From NCBI GenBank assembly GCA_937981985.1, contig CALJNB010000005.1, positions 248,001 to 312,000 on the forward strand: DNA of 64,000 nt, written 5' to 3'. Shown here piece by piece: positions 48,879 through 61,239 of this stretch. Made by a program: the position numbers and the translations under genes. Below the pieces are notes generated by a model. That model was given only the letters and a program-made list of their open reading frames with translations, was not told where the DNA came from and made no database searches. Within the stretch, counting starts at the first letter, position 1; each line of letters opens with the position of its first letter. The stretch is from an uncultured bacterium (GTDB lineage Bacteria; Myxococcota_A; Bradymonadia; Bradymonadales; Bradymonadaceae).

Positions 48879-50564
48879 ATGAGCGAAAAATTACTTGATC
48901 GATTGAACGAAGAAAGAACGGTCGTTTTACCCCCAGGAGAGCCGGCCGACCAAATTGAGCGTATTTTAGACCGTCCTGATGCTGATGCCTATATTGCAGC
49001 CATCGATCCACCTGTTCTGCATCATCTCATTAAAACTGCGGGGTGGGCTGAAGCGACGGATCTCATTCCTTTCGTCACGACTTATCAGATCCAAGTTTGC
49101 GTTGATTTGGATTGTTGGTCCAAAGAGTCGTTTGATACCGAAGCCTTGTCGCCATGGCTCGCCGCATTGATAACAACGACCACAGATGCACAATTTGCTT
49201 CGACGTGTCGCGAGCTTGATCCCGAAATACTGGCCATGTTTTTTAAGGAAAATTTAAAGGTCGGAGAAATGAGTGACGAGGGCGAAGTTCCTGAAGCTTT
49301 CTATCATATGGAGGTTGAAACGAGTCCCGATGGGGTCTATGGTTTAGTCTATCCTGACGACGATGCGACCGCAGATCTCCTTCGGAACATCATTAAGCAT
49401 CTTTATCATAGCGATCGTGTCTTAGCTTGGACCTTGCTTGAAGCATGTCGTTGGGAACTCATGTCACCGATGGAGCACGAAGCCTTACGATGGAGAAATA
49501 GTCGCCTCGAAGAATATGGATATGTGAGTCGAGATGAGGCGTTCCAAATTTATCATGTCCTTCCACCGCTTTGGCTTCGTAAAAGTTTGGAAGATGGCAG
49601 TTATGATCCCAAAATTGAAACGCGAATACGACCTGACAATTTGCCAATCGTACCTTCGTTAGACGAAGAAAATGAATTCTTTTTCTTCCGTGCAATGGAA
49701 AAAGTCGACGACGCGGAAATTCGTAGCCGACTGACTGTTGAATTCGTTACTTTACAAAATCGCGCAGCAATTGCTGAGGGAATAAATCCAGGGGATGCGC
49801 AATCAGCAAGTACCACAGTGAGGCGCACTGCTGGATATCTCAGTTTGGGGCTATCATTTATAAGTCGTGATGATCTCCTAAAAGCAGCAAAAATGTTGGA
49901 GGCCGTAAAGCTTATTGATGTTTTTAGAGCCGGCTTTACAGCTGTTTCGACGATTTCCAAAAATGCTGCGAAACTGCGTTATCGCCCAAGTTTGACCCTT
50001 ATCGACGGCGAACACTATTCTTTGCTTAAGCAAAGTAATGCATTGCTGTTGACCCATCTCAATCATGCGCGTCCAGAATATTTTGAAAACGAAAAACTGG
50101 ACGTTTTTCGGGAGCAATCTCAACTCGACGGCGCCGCATTGAGAGTGGCATCGATAGCCTTGAAGCAAATCGTTGTTTTTAATGCGTTTGAGTTATCACC
50201 CCAAAAATTAAGTAAAATTGCATATGATAAAAATAATATCAGTACACCCGATGTTGTTACTTTCGATTTTATTTTAAGAACCGCGTTGGCGCAATCGCTT
50301 ACGAAGGGAAGCGATTTCTTTGCTCCGCTCTCATCATCCCAGATAAAAAGCTTACCTTCGATAATTCGTTCCAAACCCTGGGGACAAGACCCGGTCGGTT
50401 TCTTTGAATCCATTAACGGAGCTATAGTTACGATCGTGCCTGCTGCAATGATTCGCCTTGTGGGTTCTTGGTTTCAGCAGTGTTTAGAAAGTTTAGAAGA
50501 TGAGTTTTCCGAAATCGTGTCAGTTGACGATGCGAAAGTATTCGCAACAGTCGTTCTGGTCTAA
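48879..50564 (+). CDS. DUF6178-like hypothetical protein
   Basis: LDRLNEERTVVLPPGEPADQIERILDRPDADAYIAAIDPPVLHHLIKTAGWAEATDLIPFVTTYQIQVCVDLDCW. Confidence 0.7.
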   Translation: MSEKLLDRLNEERTVVLPPGEPADQIERILDRPDADAYIAAIDPPVLHHLIKTAGWAEATDLIPFVTTYQIQVCVDLDCWSKESFDTEALSPWLAALITTTTDAQFASTCRELDPEILAMFFKENLKVGEMSDEGEVPEAFYHMEVETSPDGVYGLVYPDDDATADLLRNIIKHLYHSDRVLAWTLLEACRWELMSPMEHEALRWRNSRLEEYGYVSRDEAFQIYHVLPPLWLRKSLEDGSYDPKIETRIRPDNLPIVPSLDEENEFFFFRAMEKVDDAEIRSRLTVEFVTLQNRAAIAEGINPGDAQSASTTVRRTAGYLSLGLSFISRDDLLKAAKMLEAVKLIDVFRAGFTAVSTISKNAAKLRYRPSLTLIDGEHYSLLKQSNALLLTHLNHARPEYFENEKLDVFREQSQLDGAALRVASIALKQIVVFNAFELSPQKLSKIAYDKNNISTPDVVTFDFILRTALAQSLTKGSDFFAPLSSSQIKSLPSIIRSKPWGQDPVGFFESINGAIVTIVPAAMIRLVGSWFQQCLESLEDEFSEIVSVDDAKVFATVVLV

Positions 50565-52139: not shown

Positions 52140-54542
52140 GTGAAACAATACGCTTTAAAATCGAAAACCATCGTTCAATCCCATTTGTTGGACGGTTTGA
52201 ACGAACAACAACGTGTTGCCGCGGATCACGAAACGGGGCCTTTGCTCATTTTAGCGGGGGCAGGATCAGGTAAGACAAGGGTGATGACCCATCGCATTGC
52301 CCATATGATTTTAAATAAAGGGGTTGCGCCAGAATCGATCTTAGCACTGACTTTTACGAATAAAGCCGCCGGCGAGATGCGTGAACGTGTTGAAGACCTC
52401 TTAGCCTCTTCTAATTTGGGTTCTCATCCTACGGTTTCAACCTTTCATAGTCTTTGTGCGAAGCTACTACGCCGCGAGGCCAAACATCTGGGACTTGCGT
52501 CTAATTTTATCATCTACGATGACAAAGATCAGATGGCCTTCATTAAACGGATGCTAAAAGACGAGAATACGAAGGTTGATGTGGTCGAAGCGCGTCAGAA
52601 ACGGTCCTTTATTGAACGGCAGAAAAACGCAGCATTAACTCCTCAACAAACTCACGAATTAGCCTTTGATCAAGAGGCGGAAGATAATGCATTTTTTTAC
52701 GAGTCCTATCAGAAGAAGCTGCGCGAATCGAATTGTCTAGATTTTGGAGATCTTATTCTCGCGTTGATTGAAATTTTCAGAAATCAACCCGAAGTAGTAA
52801 AGAAGTACAGTACTTTATGGCAATTCATCATGGTCGATGAATTCCAAGATACCAATCCCGCACAAATGGAATTACTAAACCACTTGATCTCGACACACAA
52901 GAATTTGGCCGTTGTGGGTGATGATGATCAAGCGATCTACCGTTGGCGAGGCGCTACGGTTCGAAATATTCTAGACTTTGAAGAGCAACATTGCGATGTT
53001 TCGGTTGTAAAATTGGAACAAAATTATCGTTCGACGCAAACGATTTTGGATGCTGCTCACAATATCATCCAATATAATACGGATAGAAAAGATAAGAAAC
53101 TTTGGACTGCATTTGATCGTGGTGAGCCGATTACACTTTATACGTCCAACGACGATCGCGATGAGGCGATTTACGTCGTGAATACTGTCGAGGAGATCGT
53201 TAACGCGTCGAAAACGAGCTACAATGATATCGCTATCTTCTACCGTACTAACGCTCAGGCTCGTGCATTTGAAGAACAAATGCGCTTTTTAGATGTGCCT
53301 TATCAGATTGTCGGGGGAACTAGTTTTTATGCTCGAGAAGAGATCAAAGATATTTTGGCCTATCTAAAAATCGCGTTGAATCCGAAGAACGAAGTCGATT
53401 TTTTTAGGGTCCTCAATAAGCCGACACGCGGGATTGGTAAGAAGTCTGAGGATACGTTGAGAGTCGCAGCAGCGCTCCATCCGGAAGGTATTTGGGGCGC
53501 TATGGCGTCTCTTTACGATGATGCTTCCGCTGCGCATGAAGATCTTTTTTCGTTTACGAAACGCGCGAAAAAAAACATCTTAACTTTTTTCGAGATTGTT
53601 CAAACTCTACGTGAGATGCTTCGAGATGGTGCGTCGTTAGGTTCGGTAGTTACCCAACTTGTCGATCAAATTGATTACATTGCCTACGTTAATAAATCCG
53701 ATCCCGAGCGAGCAGAAGACAAAATTCGTAACGTCGAAGAGTTGATTAACGGGATGGATGCCTTTGAGGAAGAACAAGAAGATACTCCAGATGCGATGCT
53801 TCGGCTTCAGCTGTTTTTAGAGAAATCAGCATTACTGGCAAGTACCGTTAGCTTGGATCATTCAGCCGGCGCCGTTACTTTAATGACCGTCCACTCAGCA
53901 AAAGGATTAGAGTTCAACACGGTATTTTGCGTCGGTATGGAAGATGAAGTTTTTCCGAGCTCCCGGTCCGAAGGCGACCCCGATGCGATTGCCGAAGAGC
54001 GTCGACTCGCTTATGTGGCACTCACGCGTGCAAAGGAAAAGCTATATATTACCAACGCTCGGCGACGAAGAATCCGTGGGCAGTATTTTGAGACCAGTTT
54101 AAGTCGTTTTGTTTTAGACATTGAAGAAGAGTACGTAGAAAAGGATCCGAAGAGCGTTTACCGCCCGCAGCGAGCCGCTTCGATAAAGCGCAATCCTACC
54201 CAATCTCGTCCTTTTGGTTATGGGGTGGATCCTGAAGAATGGGCACTGGATCAATCTCCAGATATGTACAAGAATTCGCTATCAAAACCACCTTCGATTC
54301 CTGATTACGACGAGCTCTCTCAAGTCGCTGAGTACGACGACGAGCTTGTCTACGAAGTGGAGGATTTTTGTGCACCCGTGAACGACGACGTATTAATAGG
54401 CAAAGTGGTTAGCCATTCTCGTTTTGGGATAGGTGAGGTTTTATCGGTTAGCGGAACTGGCGACCGCGCAGTTCTCACGATTAAGTTTCCAATGGAAGTT
54501 GATGACACCGAAATCATCCGTAAATGGGTTAAAGTCCTTTAA
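52140..54542 (+). CDS. UvrD/PcrA/Rep-family ATP-dependent DNA helicase
   Basis: LNEQQRVAADHETGPLLILAGAGSGKTRVMTHRIAHMI; VDEFQDTNPAQ; VGDDDQAIYRWRGA; LMTVHSAKGLEFNTVFCVGMEDEVFPS; GTG start. Confidence 0.97.
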   Translation: MKQYALKSKTIVQSHLLDGLNEQQRVAADHETGPLLILAGAGSGKTRVMTHRIAHMILNKGVAPESILALTFTNKAAGEMRERVEDLLASSNLGSHPTVSTFHSLCAKLLRREAKHLGLASNFIIYDDKDQMAFIKRMLKDENTKVDVVEARQKRSFIERQKNAALTPQQTHELAFDQEAEDNAFFYESYQKKLRESNCLDFGDLILALIEIFRNQPEVVKKYSTLWQFIMVDEFQDTNPAQMELLNHLISTHKNLAVVGDDDQAIYRWRGATVRNILDFEEQHCDVSVVKLEQNYRSTQTILDAAHNIIQYNTDRKDKKLWTAFDRGEPITLYTSNDDRDEAIYVVNTVEEIVNASKTSYNDIAIFYRTNAQARAFEEQMRFLDVPYQIVGGTSFYAREEIKDILAYLKIALNPKNEVDFFRVLNKPTRGIGKKSEDTLRVAAALHPEGIWGAMASLYDDASAAHEDLFSFTKRAKKNILTFFEIVQTLREMLRDGASLGSVVTQLVDQIDYIAYVNKSDPERAEDKIRNVEELINGMDAFEEEQEDTPDAMLRLQLFLEKSALLASTVSLDHSAGAVTLMTVHSAKGLEFNTVFCVGMEDEVFPSSRSEGDPDAIAEERRLAYVALTRAKEKLYITNARRRRIRGQYFETSLSRFVLDIEEEYVEKDPKSVYRPQRAASIKRNPTQSRPFGYGVDPEEWALDQSPDMYKNSLSKPPSIPDYDELSQVAEYDDELVYEVEDFCAPVNDDVLIGKVVSHSRFGIGEVLSVSGTGDRAVLTIKFPMEVDDTEIIRKWVKVL

Positions 54543-54657: not shown

Positions 54658-55740
54658 ATGACTGCAAATTTAGCAAGTGTTAACGACGAACTTAATAGTA
54701 TTTTTGCGGATTACGATCGCAACTTTGCCGGCCGACCGAGAGCGACTCGAAACTCAGCAATTTTGTCCGATATCATCGAACGCTTGGAAAGTTCTATCGG
54801 GACTGCAAAGTCACTTGCAAACGGAGACGATTCGATTGCGGATACGCTGAAGACCGCAAACGAAAATTTGGATAGGTACCTTGAAGAATTAGAGGCAATT
54901 CGTACCATTCAGTCTGATTCACGCGTTGTATTCGCTGCAGAACTTGCGGGTGAAGCTAATCGAGTTTTTGATCGTTACCAGCGACATTTTGCCGGCGCCA
55001 ATCGTGCTACACGTGACTATTTAAAATTGAATGCGATGGCCGATGAATTGGTTTCGATCGAAGATAAAATGGCACAGCTTGTTGAAGCGGGTGTGAATGA
55101 GGCGAAAAAAGACCGCGGCGTCGTTAAAGAGCAACTTTCGCTTTATCGCACCGAGATTGCCAATATCAAACAAGCACAGGTTTCAGGAAACAACAGCGAA
55201 AAAGTGGATCGATATGCACAGCTAGCTAACGATCAGTTTCGTCTATATCGCGTTCACTTTTCGGGCAAAAGTCGCCCATCGCGACGCGTTGGTTTGTTGG
55301 AACGAATGAAATCGAATTTGAAAATCTATCGTCGTTATATGAATGATCTTCAAAAGTCGGGGTTTCGTAATACAATGAATCAGAAGAATATCGACGTCGT
55401 TTCGGCGAATATTAAGATGTACGAAACTGAAATTGAAGAAGTTAAAAAAGCCAAGGCCGCGATTCCAGTAAAAGATCTTGCTGGTAATTTGGGCGGCGCG
55501 GCGAATGAAATCTTTCAAAGCTATCGCGACTCTTTTGCTGGTAAAGATCGATCTGGTGTTGATATCGAGTTACTTAGCGATCTTTGCGATGGTCTTCATG
55601 ATATCGTCTTACAAATGAAAGAGATTTCAAACGAGATTGATATTGAGGCAAACGACGCTAACCTAAGAATTGTGGAAGAAAATCTAACTTCCTACGAAAA
55701 CGAGTACCGCGCGATTAAAGAAGCACAAGGAACAAAATGA
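54658..55740 (+). CDS. Hypothetical protein made of four ~90-aa helical repeats
   Basis: Repeats anchored by FADYDRNFAGRPRATR, FDRYQRHFAGANRATR, FRLYRVHFSGKSRPSR, FQSYRDSFAGKDRSG. Confidence 0.8.
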   Translation: MTANLASVNDELNSIFADYDRNFAGRPRATRNSAILSDIIERLESSIGTAKSLANGDDSIADTLKTANENLDRYLEELEAIRTIQSDSRVVFAAELAGEANRVFDRYQRHFAGANRATRDYLKLNAMADELVSIEDKMAQLVEAGVNEAKKDRGVVKEQLSLYRTEIANIKQAQVSGNNSEKVDRYAQLANDQFRLYRVHFSGKSRPSRRVGLLERMKSNLKIYRRYMNDLQKSGFRNTMNQKNIDVVSANIKMYETEIEEVKKAKAAIPVKDLAGNLGGAANEIFQSYRDSFAGKDRSGVDIELLSDLCDGLHDIVLQMKEISNEIDIEANDANLRIVEENLTSYENEYRAIKEAQGTK

Positions 55741-56039
55741 CAGAATCGAATACCTACATGTATGCTCTATTATGGACTTGCTCAAGCTGCGGTTACGTCC
55801 GCGAAGGCGGCCAACCAAAGATGGAATGTCCAACTTGCGCGGCTTATAAAACAGCCTTCATTAGTTTTCCTCAGCATCTAGAAAAAGAGATCCGAGAAAC
55901 CTTCACCGAAGTGCCGCCGAATCATAAAGAATGTCGTGCTAAGCGAATGGAATTAATCGTGGAACATGACGTAAAGGAAAAGTCACCTTTTGCGGGGCGG
56001 ATACTTCCGGCCGCATCAGGCAATACGATGGATAATTAG
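55737..56039 (+). CDS. Rubredoxin-like zinc-ribbon/iron-binding protein
   Basis: WTCSSCGYVREGGQPKMECPTCAAYKTAFISF; ATGA overlap with the upstream repeat protein gene. Confidence 0.75.
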   Translation: MTESNTYMYALLWTCSSCGYVREGGQPKMECPTCAAYKTAFISFPQHLEKEIRETFTEVPPNHKECRAKRMELIVEHDVKEKSPFAGRILPAASGNTMDN

Positions 56040-56043
56040 CGCG

Positions 56044-56787
56044 CTATTTTTCTATATCTTGCCAGGCTTCAACCTGGGTCAATGACATTCTGTCGCCAGG
56101 CTTAATACCGAGTGCTTTTGTCTGGCCGGCAACTAATTCAAGAACATATTTGGAGGGGATCTCTACACCACGAGCTTGTTTGGTCATCGGTTCCGCACCT
56201 TCTACAATTCCCACGATAAATCCCTTTTCGTCCATGAAAAGCATATCGAGTGGAATAAGGGTATTTTTCATCCAGAAAGAACGGATGCGAACATCGCCGT
56301 AGATGAAGAGCATGCCCCAGTCTTCGCGCATCGTTTTTCGGTACATCAAACCGCGCGTCATCTGTTTTACAGAAATAGCCAATTCTACCTTAAAGGTTTC
56401 TGACGAACCGTCGGCTTTTCGAATAATAGCCGTTGGCGTCGTCTCTTTAGTAACGCCCGAAATAGCGGGTGGAATTGTACACTTTGAGTCGATGCATCGA
56501 AGGTATGTTTTGCATTCGTCATCGAAAGTACAGACTGCTGGGCTCGCTTTTTCTTTAGGAGCTTTAGGCGCTTTTTTTAACGCATCAACATCGGTTGGCT
56601 TTTGGTCGACCTTTGCTTCAGTCTCTTTTTTCGCCTTTTTTTCGCGATCAATGCTTTTTGTCTTGGAACTCAGACAAGAGAACGTTGAGAGCGTTAGTAA
56701 CACGAGGACGCAGGTTAACGTCGTTTGAACGATTCCCATCCGGTGATAGATGCGAACAAGCCCTAGGGAAAGGTTAGAAAAACTCAC
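56044..56787 (-). CDS. DUF192 family lipoprotein
   Basis: FKVELAISVKQMTRGLMYRKTMREDWGMLFIYGDVRIRSFWMKNTLIPLDMLFMDEKGFIVGIVEGAEPMT; GTG start coupled to upstream stop, or ATG at 56739. Confidence 0.88.
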   Translation of the reverse strand: MSFSNLSLGLVRIYHRMGIVQTTLTCVLVLLTLSTFSCLSSKTKSIDREKKAKKETEAKVDQKPTDVDALKKAPKAPKEKASPAVCTFDDECKTYLRCIDSKCTIPPAISGVTKETTPTAIIRKADGSSETFKVELAISVKQMTRGLMYRKTMREDWGMLFIYGDVRIRSFWMKNTLIPLDMLFMDEKGFIVGIVEGAEPMTKQARGVEIPSKYVLELVAGQTKALGIKPGDRMSLTQVEAWQDIEK

Positions 56788-59042
56788 AGTGATTTAAGTC
56801 CTTTTTGGAGTGCGTTCTTAACATCGAGGTCTTTTTCTATTTTGATTCGGTTTTGAATACCTTTTTTCGCGCTTCGATCTTTCAGTTTGACGAGGGTTTC
56901 GATTGTCGTAAGTCGAACACGACGATTGGTATCATCCAACATATTGACGAGCAGTTCAGTAGCCGAACCGTGTTTCGTGGCACCCAGAGCTCTAATGGCG
57001 GCTAATTGTAAAGGTTCGTGTTCGTCGTTGAGACGAAGCGCGATTGCAGTTACGGCGGACTCGTCTTTGAAGGTTCCAAGTTGCACGATTGCAGCCTCTT
57101 GAACGAATTTTGATTTATCGGATACGCGACCGGACAGCATGGAGATAACGTCTCTTACGCCGCGCTGATCGTCACGAGAAATCAGGTTTCCGAGTGCGGT
57201 CAAAGACGCAGCTCGTACTCCTTCATCATTAGAAGAGCTCAGTTTCTTAATTTTGTCCCATGCAAAGGTTTCGCCTCTTCGACCAAGTGCCGAGATGGCG
57301 CCTGCTTGAACTGCAGTGTTTTTATCAGCCAACATTTTGGTGAGTTCGTCCGTTAAAACGCCCTCTTTTAAAAATCCGATCGCGTAGGCTACGTCGGCGC
57401 GAACCGCATTGTCCCGATCTTTAAGCATTCCTTTGAGTACCGTTTCGGCGTCTTTATTGGCGTAGCGTCCAATGGCTCTGGCGCTGGCGCCGCGAATACC
57501 AGCATCAGAATTTTTAGCTCCAGTTTTTAAGATGGAGAAAATTTTGGCGCTCTTTCCTTCTTTAGCGGCTTTTTCGCCGAAGGCTCGGTAGGCCAGACGT
57601 TGTGTAAATTTGTTTGAAGATTTGGTTTGTCCCGAAATCACGTTCGTTTTCTGAGCGGTCATAATTCTGTAGCCGGCGGCATCTGTTTTTCGCGGGAAGG
57701 ATTTAATCATACTGGCAATCGCTGGTAAGGACGAAATGTTTTTCCGCTTGGCGAGTTCTTCTAGTGCGGCAAGCTGACGTTCCGATTTCGATTTTTTTAG
57801 TAGAGCTTCTAATGCGATTCGTGCCGAGTCGTTTGGTGTGGCTCCTAATTTGACGATAGCGTCTAAGGCGAGATCGTTATTTGCGTTCTGCGCAAGGTAT
57901 TTCAATCCGGTGACTTTCGTATTCGCGCTCTTTTCGGAAAGTCGCGTTGCGATTTGTATTTTTGTAATCGGCTTTATTTTCTGATTATCAAGGGCTTTGG
58001 TGAGTACTTTATCTTCTTTTAGTTTGCTGAGCGCATCAACGGCGGCCGACGCGATAGTGGTCTTTTTATCACTGATTTTTTCGTTAAGAATTTTGACCGT
58101 TTCGGGAGTTGTTTTTGATTTTCCAAGCACGGCAATTGCTTCAATCGCCTGTTTCTCCGTTCCTTTGTTGAGCAGGTAGTAGGTCATTTGGACGCTATAT
58201 TTTGAATTTTTCGACTTACTCAAAAAGTCGGCGGCCTGAACGACAATCTTCTGGCTTTTATCTTTTTGCATCACTCGAAGCACGGCCGACAGAACCTTGT
58301 CTTCGTTGCGTTTGGCCTCAAGAATCGTAAGTGCAGTTTTCCGTATTGATTCTGTTTTGTGGTTCAGAAGTGGAAGAACTTTATCTACAAAAGGAAGACC
58401 CAGAGTGGGTAATAGCTTTGCTACGGTTCCAACGGTGTAAGGATCGGATGATTTAAGGTAACTATACACCTGTTTACGTATTTTAGGAGTTTTGGATGAC
58501 CAAGCTTTGATGACATCAAAACTCGACGCGATAGTTCCGTCGGGGAGCTGAACCTGAATAGATTTACTTTTTACGTTAGGTAAAACTTTCCAAAGAGGCA
58601 TGATTAAACTGTAAGCGGCGAAAGGTACGTCTTTTCGTTTGAGCACTTTGGATGTGTATCCGGGGAACGAAACGCCAGTGACCCCCATTTCAGTTAATGT
58701 ATATACTGTTTCGGCAATAATGATGACCGCGTAGGGCATATTGCGCTGTGGTATCGCGATCGAAACGCGAGCACTCGCAGGACTTGAACCTGATATGGTC
58801 AGTTTCGACGCGCCGTAGGTGGATCGTTTTGCTTTCTTTAGTGCGTTAAAGGCCGAGGTGATTGTATTTTTTGACGCTACACCTTTTAGTGAGTCAGTGG
58901 GTACCGGTACCAATACCCAATCGGCTTTTGTGCCGATTTCTACTTTTTGATAGCTAAAAAGTACGTTTCCGGCGTCTGCAGAAAGTGAAGATGTGGAGAG
59001 TAAGATAAATACAAATGATAAAATAATTCTAGACATGATCAC
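56784..59042 (-). CDS. Secreted HEAT-repeat protein
   Basis: Signal peptide IILSFVFILLSTSSLSA; many DAGIRGASARAIGRYANKDAETVLKGMLKDRDNAVRADVAYAIGFL repeats. Confidence 0.88.
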   Translation of the reverse strand: MIMSRIILSFVFILLSTSSLSADAGNVLFSYQKVEIGTKADWVLVPVPTDSLKGVASKNTITSAFNALKKAKRSTYGASKLTISGSSPASARVSIAIPQRNMPYAVIIIAETVYTLTEMGVTGVSFPGYTSKVLKRKDVPFAAYSLIMPLWKVLPNVKSKSIQVQLPDGTIASSFDVIKAWSSKTPKIRKQVYSYLKSSDPYTVGTVAKLLPTLGLPFVDKVLPLLNHKTESIRKTALTILEAKRNEDKVLSAVLRVMQKDKSQKIVVQAADFLSKSKNSKYSVQMTYYLLNKGTEKQAIEAIAVLGKSKTTPETVKILNEKISDKKTTIASAAVDALSKLKEDKVLTKALDNQKIKPITKIQIATRLSEKSANTKVTGLKYLAQNANNDLALDAIVKLGATPNDSARIALEALLKKSKSERQLAALEELAKRKNISSLPAIASMIKSFPRKTDAAGYRIMTAQKTNVISGQTKSSNKFTQRLAYRAFGEKAAKEGKSAKIFSILKTGAKNSDAGIRGASARAIGRYANKDAETVLKGMLKDRDNAVRADVAYAIGFLKEGVLTDELTKMLADKNTAVQAGAISALGRRGETFAWDKIKKLSSSNDEGVRAASLTALGNLISRDDQRGVRDVISMLSGRVSDKSKFVQEAAIVQLGTFKDESAVTAIALRLNDEHEPLQLAAIRALGATKHGSATELLVNMLDDTNRRVRLTTIETLVKLKDRSAKKGIQNRIKIEKDLDVKNALQKGLKSL

Positions 59043-59160: not shown

Positions 59161-59367
59161 TTAGAAATTTAGAACACCGGCTCTTGCGCCGCTGATGGCT
59201 ACGAGTGTGTTACATTTGCCGTCCTGACATAGCCAAAACATCCCACTCGGGCCGGTATCTCGTAAGATCTTGGAAACGACCATGTCAGTTTCACATGCAG
59301 GACACGATTTTTTATTGCGGGTCCCTTTCTTATTTGAAGCGATTTTTGCTGGTTTTTTAGTTGCCAT
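59161..59367 (-). CDS. Small zinc-ribbon protein
   Basis: Lys-rich N-terminus, CPACETDMVVSKILRDTGPSGMFWLCQDGKCNTLV. Confidence 0.7.
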   Translation of the reverse strand: MATKKPAKIASNKKGTRNKKSCPACETDMVVSKILRDTGPSGMFWLCQDGKCNTLVAISGARAGVLNF

Positions 59368-59863: not shown

Positions 59864-60322
59864 TTGAGCGAACTGACTCACACCTCGAGTATTCCTATTC
59901 CTAAAGATTGCAGCGATCCGATCGGTGAGCTCGAAATTTTTCTACGTACAAACGGTTACCTCATCCAAATCGACGCAGATTCATTGAGCGCGACACGCGG
60001 AGAAAAAGGAAAGGGATTTTGGACAAGTGATCTCACGGTTCTTCCGACTTCAGTGAAGATCAAAATGAAGGATAACCAAGCTGAAGTCGAATATCGAGTG
60101 GATACGACGGGCCAAATTTTGAACGATGAGGAAAGACAATTTTGGCCACGTGAAGTTCAAGCAGCAGGATCCTTTATTGCCGGAGGATCCCTCGAAAATT
60201 TAAAGGAAGCCCAGAAATTTCAAGCTTCAGAAATTCGATCGCGTTTCTTTAAAAGAGGCATGACCCTTTCGATCTCTATCGCCTTCGTTTTGTTTATTGT
60301 TGGAGTGCTTGTCTTCAAATGA
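59864..60322 (+). CDS. Hypothetical protein with C-terminal TM helix, coupled to the FHA gene
   Basis: 152 aa; C-terminal MTLSISIAFVLFIVGVLVFK; 4-nt overlap with next gene. Confidence 0.7.
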   Translation: MSELTHTSSIPIPKDCSDPIGELEIFLRTNGYLIQIDADSLSATRGEKGKGFWTSDLTVLPTSVKIKMKDNQAEVEYRVDTTGQILNDEERQFWPREVQAAGSFIAGGSLENLKEAQKFQASEIRSRFFKRGMTLSISIAFVLFIVGVLVFK

Positions 60323-61239
60323 AACGCGATTTAGTTCTAGAAATTGTACGTGATTCAACCTCTTATACGATACAGGTTGATTCTCTGAATGGAATTTTGG
60401 GTCGCGGGCCAGATGCCGATATCCGTCTTCCTTTCCCTACGATAAGTAGCGCTCACCTCGAATTTAAAAAAGAGAACGAACTTTTCTTTTTTCGCGATCT
60501 CGGAACAACCAACGGGACATCGATCGAAGGCGTAAAAGTTGAACCCCGCAGGTGGATAGAAATTAAAGATCCCGTGACGTTAACGATCGTTGATACCCGT
60601 TTGATCTTTAGTGTTCATACCGAACATAAATCGCACTTTACAATGACCCAATCCGGGACCCTTGCGCGCAAACTTCTAATGGATGCTCTTGGATCCAAAG
60701 ATAGCGAGGGTCAAGAGAACGCATTTCTGGAGGCTTTGTCCGGATCCGGTAAAGGTGAACGCCTAACGCTCGATGACGGAATGGACCGAATTGAAATCGG
60801 TGGGATGCGTACAAATTTAGGATTCCCTCCCGGGACTCCACATGGGATTGCATTCATTTTTCGAGATGGGGATGGCTTTTCGATAAAGTCTAATGAGGCT
60901 ATTTCAATGCGTGGTAGGGTAGCAAAATATACCCAAGAACGACTCCGCGATGGCGATGAGCTTGTGATGCGCGAGATACGCTTTCTTTTTCGGGATCCGC
61001 TTGAGGCCTACTTTTCTGAAATCGATGATTCGCTACATGTTTCCTATGTGGCCGAACCTTCACCTTTGGTAACGCCTGGTGATACTTCGAAGGAGTTATC
61101 CGCACCAAAACCGATTCAGGGATCGACAAATCTGGTTCACGAAAAATCGAAAAGTGGCAAAGATTCGATTCTGATTGTCGTGGTTTTGATTGTGGTGGTT
61201 ATCGCAATTGTCGCGATAATTGGGGTCTTATCGCTTTAA
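60319..61239 (+). CDS. FHA-domain protein with C-terminal TM helix
   Basis: NGILGRGPDADIRLPFPTISSAHLEFKKENELFFFRDLGTTNGTSIEGVKVEPRRWIEI; C-terminal ILIVVVLIVVVIAIVAIIGVL. Confidence 0.9.
   Translation: MKRDLVLEIVRDSTSYTIQVDSLNGILGRGPDADIRLPFPTISSAHLEFKKENELFFFRDLGTTNGTSIEGVKVEPRRWIEIKDPVTLTIVDTRLIFSVHTEHKSHFTMTQSGTLARKLLMDALGSKDSEGQENAFLEALSGSGKGERLTLDDGMDRIEIGGMRTNLGFPPGTPHGIAFIFRDGDGFSIKSNEAISMRGRVAKYTQERLRDGDELVMREIRFLFRDPLEAYFSEIDDSLHVSYVAEPSPLVTPGDTSKELSAPKPIQGSTNLVHEKSKSGKDSILIVVVLIVVVIAIVAIIGVLSL

Follow-up and report, generated by a model that had tools for sequence, protein, structure and literature searches.

What do two genes that share four nucleotides in an uncultured member of the Bradymonadaceae encode, and do their products work together? 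We analyzed a stretch of 64,000 nucleotides (here called the window) from a draft genome of 4.09 Mb. The larger protein is named REP4, for four-repeat protein, and the smaller one RUB, for the small rubredoxin-like protein encoded next door. The features concerned are the following.

52140..54542, + strand: gene for a UvrD/PcrA-type helicase, upstream of REP4 with a 115-nt gap (Pfam/NCBIfam, synteny)
54658..55740, + strand: REP4, 360-aa four-repeat protein, predicted all-helical, stop included (open reading frame, repeat statistics, orthologues, AlphaFold2 model)
54667..54915, + strand: repeat 1, aa 4-86, predicted helices 2-23, 33-53, and 58-85 (alignment A1, full-length model)
54931..55182, + strand: repeat 2, aa 92-175, predicted helices 88-110, 121-143, and 148-175 (alignment A1, full-length and single-repeat models)
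55201..55458, + strand: repeat 3, aa 182-267, predicted helices 179-200, 211-233, and 239-268 (alignment A1, full-length model)
55477..55728, + strand: repeat 4, aa 274-357, predicted helices 271-292, 303-326, and 330-358; V301 replaces the second motif arginine (alignment A1, full-length model)
55737..56039, + strand: RUB, 100 aa, with a rubredoxin-like knuckle of the rubrerythrin type (CxxC...CxxC) plus a short conserved stretch at the C terminus (PF21349)

REP4 starts with ATG, and its stop codon TGA (55738-55740) overlaps the ATG of RUB (55737-55739), giving an ATGA in which 4 nt are shared; both reading frames proved to be exactly as initially annotated. The AAGGA upstream of the RUB start is a plausible ribosome-binding site, and a promoter and terminator scan returned sites no more numerous than expected by chance. 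The REP4 proteins of the window and of a same-genus relative are 76% identical. Between these two genomes dN is 0.17 for REP4 and 0.12 for RUB, and synonymous sites are saturated, which indicates that both are real coding genes under purifying selection.

REP4 consists of four ancient repeats

REP4 was cut into four segments of ~90 residues, and the six pairwise alignments between them scored 47 to 96, against 99th percentiles of 38 to 45 for shuffled sequences. For all six pairs, none of 1,000 shuffles reached the real score. Among 34 orthologues, the signature of each repeat is Y-x3-F-A-G-x2-R-x-[T/S]-R, plus Y..E on the third helix. When the four positions of these orthologues were counted together, the first arginine and the helix-C glutamate were each present in 136/136 cases, the tyrosine in 133/136, the second arginine in 131/136, and the glycine in 129/136. 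Repeat 4 of the window reads FAGKDRSGVD, in which the second motif arginine is gone, and an arginine occupies that site in 29 of the 34 orthologues. Thus, the four module copies with conserved blocks described in the initial annotation withstand the shuffling test, with the exception that repeat 4 lacks one residue of the block.

A single-repeat profile found exactly four matches in 44 of 53 positive genomes. Of the nine others, one had three matches and eight, all from family f12, had more than four, in line with the REP4 paralogues found in that family. In a tree of 88 repeats across orthologues, the repeats grouped by position: R1, R3, and R4 each formed one clade, and a single clade for R2 required one extra change. 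This clustering implies that the four-fold duplication is ancient and predates the split of these lineages, the copies having since been kept separately without turnover.

The predicted fold of REP4 matches no known family

AlphaFold2 modeled full-length REP4, using 30 orthologues, with a mean pLDDT of 92.9 and a pTM of 0.83; one repeat alone gave a pLDDT of 93.8. The full-length model comprises twelve helices, three per repeat, which fits the helical part of the scaffold suggested from the sequence at the outset. The same suggestion held that REP4 belongs to no named family, and the Pfam, NCBIfam, and PDB sequence searches likewise returned none: nothing exceeded a curated threshold in Pfam or NCBIfam, and no PDB sequence matched better than E = 0.17. 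PADLOC and PHROGs, which carry no curated thresholds, gave weak matches, mostly to short helical stretches (e.g., GajA, E = 3.8e-5 over 49 residues). A known-family identity was rejected, as the sequence matches across all five collections amounted to weak helical noise. No fold match with E < 0.001 came up, whether the whole model was searched in PDB and BFVD or one repeat in PDB. The best full-length Foldseek match was a designed protein (E = 0.017), and the matches were to generic helical proteins only.

REP4 is found in part of the Myxococcota

Of 58 relatives, 42 have a REP4 orthologue, as do 71 of 189 genomes of the phylum; the families concerned are f1, f2, f3, f4, f7, f12, f14, f19, f22, f27, f28, and f44. 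The gene is usually present in single copy, and f12 genomes often contain paralogues. Up to four per genome were seen in G131 (L154-L157) and other f12 genomes, some of the paralogues matching only part of the profile. Furthermore, one short REP4 pattern retrieved 30 loci from a collection of 84,980 species, all with titles of the Myxococcota type or reading Deltaproteobacteria, Proteobacteria, or bacterium. REP4 was found in none of the plasmid, phage, and viral-contig collections, so nothing points to a gene carried by phages or other mobile elements. Altogether, REP4 appears to be specific to part of the Myxococcota lineage.

A scaffold held by its signature residues is the preferred reading

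Our preferred reading, which we hold tentatively, is that REP4 is a lineage-specific scaffold or adaptor, soluble in the cytosol, in which the main task of the signature residues is to keep each bundle together, and that RUB is a separate gene, likely acting with RarA. The cytosolic location is suggested by an N terminus that, read from the sequence, is hydrophilic and without signal peptide. The fold and the absence of a catalytic signature, and these alone, point to a scaffold or adaptor. Four three-helix bundles would be joined end to end in tandem. Relative to the predicted helices, Y-x3-F-A-G-x2-R-x-[T/S]-R-D is placed where helix A runs out into the A-B loop, and the invariant Y..E close to where helix C finishes. 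In an up-down-up bundle both sites would lie on one side, at a single end, so the most economical reading is that arginine and glutamate lock each bundle by a salt bridge, the motif residues serving mainly as helix caps and as this lock. They would then resemble the fold-defining residues of other repeat proteins. Position-specific surfaces of REP4 would bind a partner not encoded next door, and RUB would have its own history, having come to follow REP4 on a single occasion, in a common ancestor of three genera.

However, charged residues that are invariant in four copies also fit four equivalent ligand sites. REP4 could bind a repeated or multivalent ligand, phosphate bearing or otherwise anionic, through the A-B loop arginines, the tyrosine, and the helix-C glutamate of each module. 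We consider this unlikely. The arginines, tyrosine, and glutamate did persist in all four repeats as the other residues diverged, and the repeat number was held at four, but fold-stabilizing residues predict the same pattern, REP4 is acidic overall (pI 5.5), and the window's genus has lost one of the eight motif arginines. More doubtful still is a larger role, in which REP4 would be a lineage-specific four-site adaptor around which a core complex is organized in the cytosol of Bradymonadia and other Myxococcota, with an equivalent Arg/Tyr/Glu pocket in each module for a repeated ligand.

REP4 is a real, conserved, and previously unnamed repeat family, ordinary in kind. The Myxococcota lineage thereby gains a well-defined and deeply conserved repeat family that had gone unannotated and that, with its signature motif and stable repeat count, can readily be annotated and tested.

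The neighborhood of REP4 is variable

The adjoining genes raise the possibility that REP4 works with replication-repair functions, namely, UvrD in the window's genus and RUB-RarA in sister genera. The orders UvrD-REP4-RUB in G000 and G001 and REP4-RUB-RarA in G004 and G005 agree with it, but we judge it improbable from the wider gene order. The UvrD neighbor is shared with the same-genus genome alone. In much of family f1, REP4 follows a universal stress protein gene and precedes a lipoprotein-like gene or glnE, and in family f3 an acylphosphatase-like gene (named from its sequence) comes after it. Across the phylum, no conserved neighbors were found except common kinases. Gene order gives no functional partner for REP4.

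Several other genes of the window were recorded. Convergent on RUB, positions 56044-59042 (- strand) encode a DUF192 protein whose N terminus is lipoprotein-like and a HEAT-repeat protein of 752 aa whose N terminus is signal-like, the two genes overlapping by 4 bases. The gene at 48879-50564 (+ strand) encodes a full-length DUF6178 protein (E = 3e-109), from a family of unknown function, and a 68-aa protein with a zinc-ribbon-like CPAC...C....C pattern, without a family match above threshold, is encoded at 59161-59367 (- strand). Two overlapping genes at 59864-61239 (+ strand) encode a 152-aa protein and an FHA-like protein, each with a C-terminal membrane helix as read from the sequence.

RUB is a rubredoxin-like protein usually encoded next to rarA in its family

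RUB had been called rubredoxin-like, and this is borne out by its match to the rubrerythrin rubredoxin-like domain PF21349 (E = 7.8e-8; 32.1 bits for a gathering cutoff of 26.5) and by its four-cysteine knuckle; some of its relatives fall just below the cutoff. All four cysteines are present in each of 28 relatives, and the tail has the conserved elements GQP, YK, PQH.E, and GR. RUB is presumably a small metal-binding protein. Strong matches were obtained in 31 of 58 relatives, all from families f1, f2, and f4; outside these families, the knuckle alone matched, and weakly.

In all 19 genomes of the family outside the window's genus (L065-L082, L123), RUB lies beside rarA. At the 18 loci from other genera of the family and in G007, rarA comes next after RUB in the same orientation, with a gap of about 550 bases at L078. 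The gene preceding RUB in G007 encodes a phosphorylase (PNP_UDP_1, MTAP-like). The identity of RarA is supported by its MgsA_C match (E = 1.2e-65). This usual place directly upstream of rarA suggests a role with RarA. Judging from the gene neighborhood in this one family, RUB is more likely to be a metal-binding accessory of the RarA replication-repair ATPase than a partner of REP4. Against this part of the preferred reading, RUB does not adjoin rarA in the stretches read from the sister families f2 and f4.

The initial annotation had proposed that REP4 and RUB work as a pair, with a redox or metal-sensing subunit on a helical scaffold, and had stated that the proposal would fall if the genes were not neighbors in other genomes, which is largely what we found. 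A conserved two-gene system would place them side by side in most genomes that hold both, but they are adjacent in only 4 of 26 (G000, G001, G004, and G005). The REP4 tree unites these four, from three genera, in a single clade (support 99/97), so the adjacency most likely has one origin, in an ancestor common to the three genera. Furthermore, 16 genomes of the class (families f3 and f7) have REP4 without RUB, and the converse holds in five (G007 and four f4 genomes), where RUB occurs but REP4 does not; as these are mostly drafts, single absences are soft, and the family-wide pattern is not. In the same-genus relative, the REP4 stop codon is TAA, and a few bases separate it from the next ATG. 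The ATGA overlap is therefore not kept within the genus and, in the window, is recent. Despite the 4-nt overlap and the adjacency in three genera, with the order REP4-RUB-RarA in two of them, a functional pair is the least probable of the readings and very improbable in itself, because the adjacency is confined to one clade, the distributions separate in both directions, and the conserved neighbor of RUB is rarA. The case shows that a tight gene overlap can mislead.

Comparison with known systems

In its AlphaFold2 secondary structure, REP4 resembles spectrin repeats, with three helices per repeat, long helices, and a tandem array, and spectrin and plakin entries were present among its weak fold matches. 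None of the spectrin matches was significant, the best having E = 0.23 at full length and a TM score of ~0.5 for the single repeat. The Pfam search gave no spectrin match for the window's REP4, and ANC1_spectrin appeared weakly in 3 of 34 members. The spectrin repeat is ~106 aa long, whereas that of REP4 is shorter (~90 aa) and bacterial and has different signature residues. On its model, REP4 works like a tandem three-helix-bundle protein, and any kinship to spectrin comes without a significant sequence or structural match. The BAG domain, the C-Ala domain of AlaRS, and designed three-helix bundles share the single-module shape of the REP4 repeat (TM to query of 0.62 to 0.75), but with Foldseek E > 0.2 for all; the likeness is that of a generic three-helix shape without sequence relation. 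Among the literature titles and abstracts consulted, none described a relevant bacterial tandem three-helix family of the REP4 type or a relevant link between RarA and a rubredoxin.

RUB shares the CxxC...CxxC knuckle with PF21349 proteins. Unlike rubrerythrin, it stands alone at 100 aa, without a di-iron domain and with its own conserved tail, and it occurs in some families of the class only. The gene for the AAA+ ATPase RarA/MgsA/WRNIP1 is its conserved neighbor in the window's family, while in the window's own genome rarA lies on another contig, without RUB. The RUB-rarA association is a concrete starting point for testing whether RarA has a metal-binding accessory.
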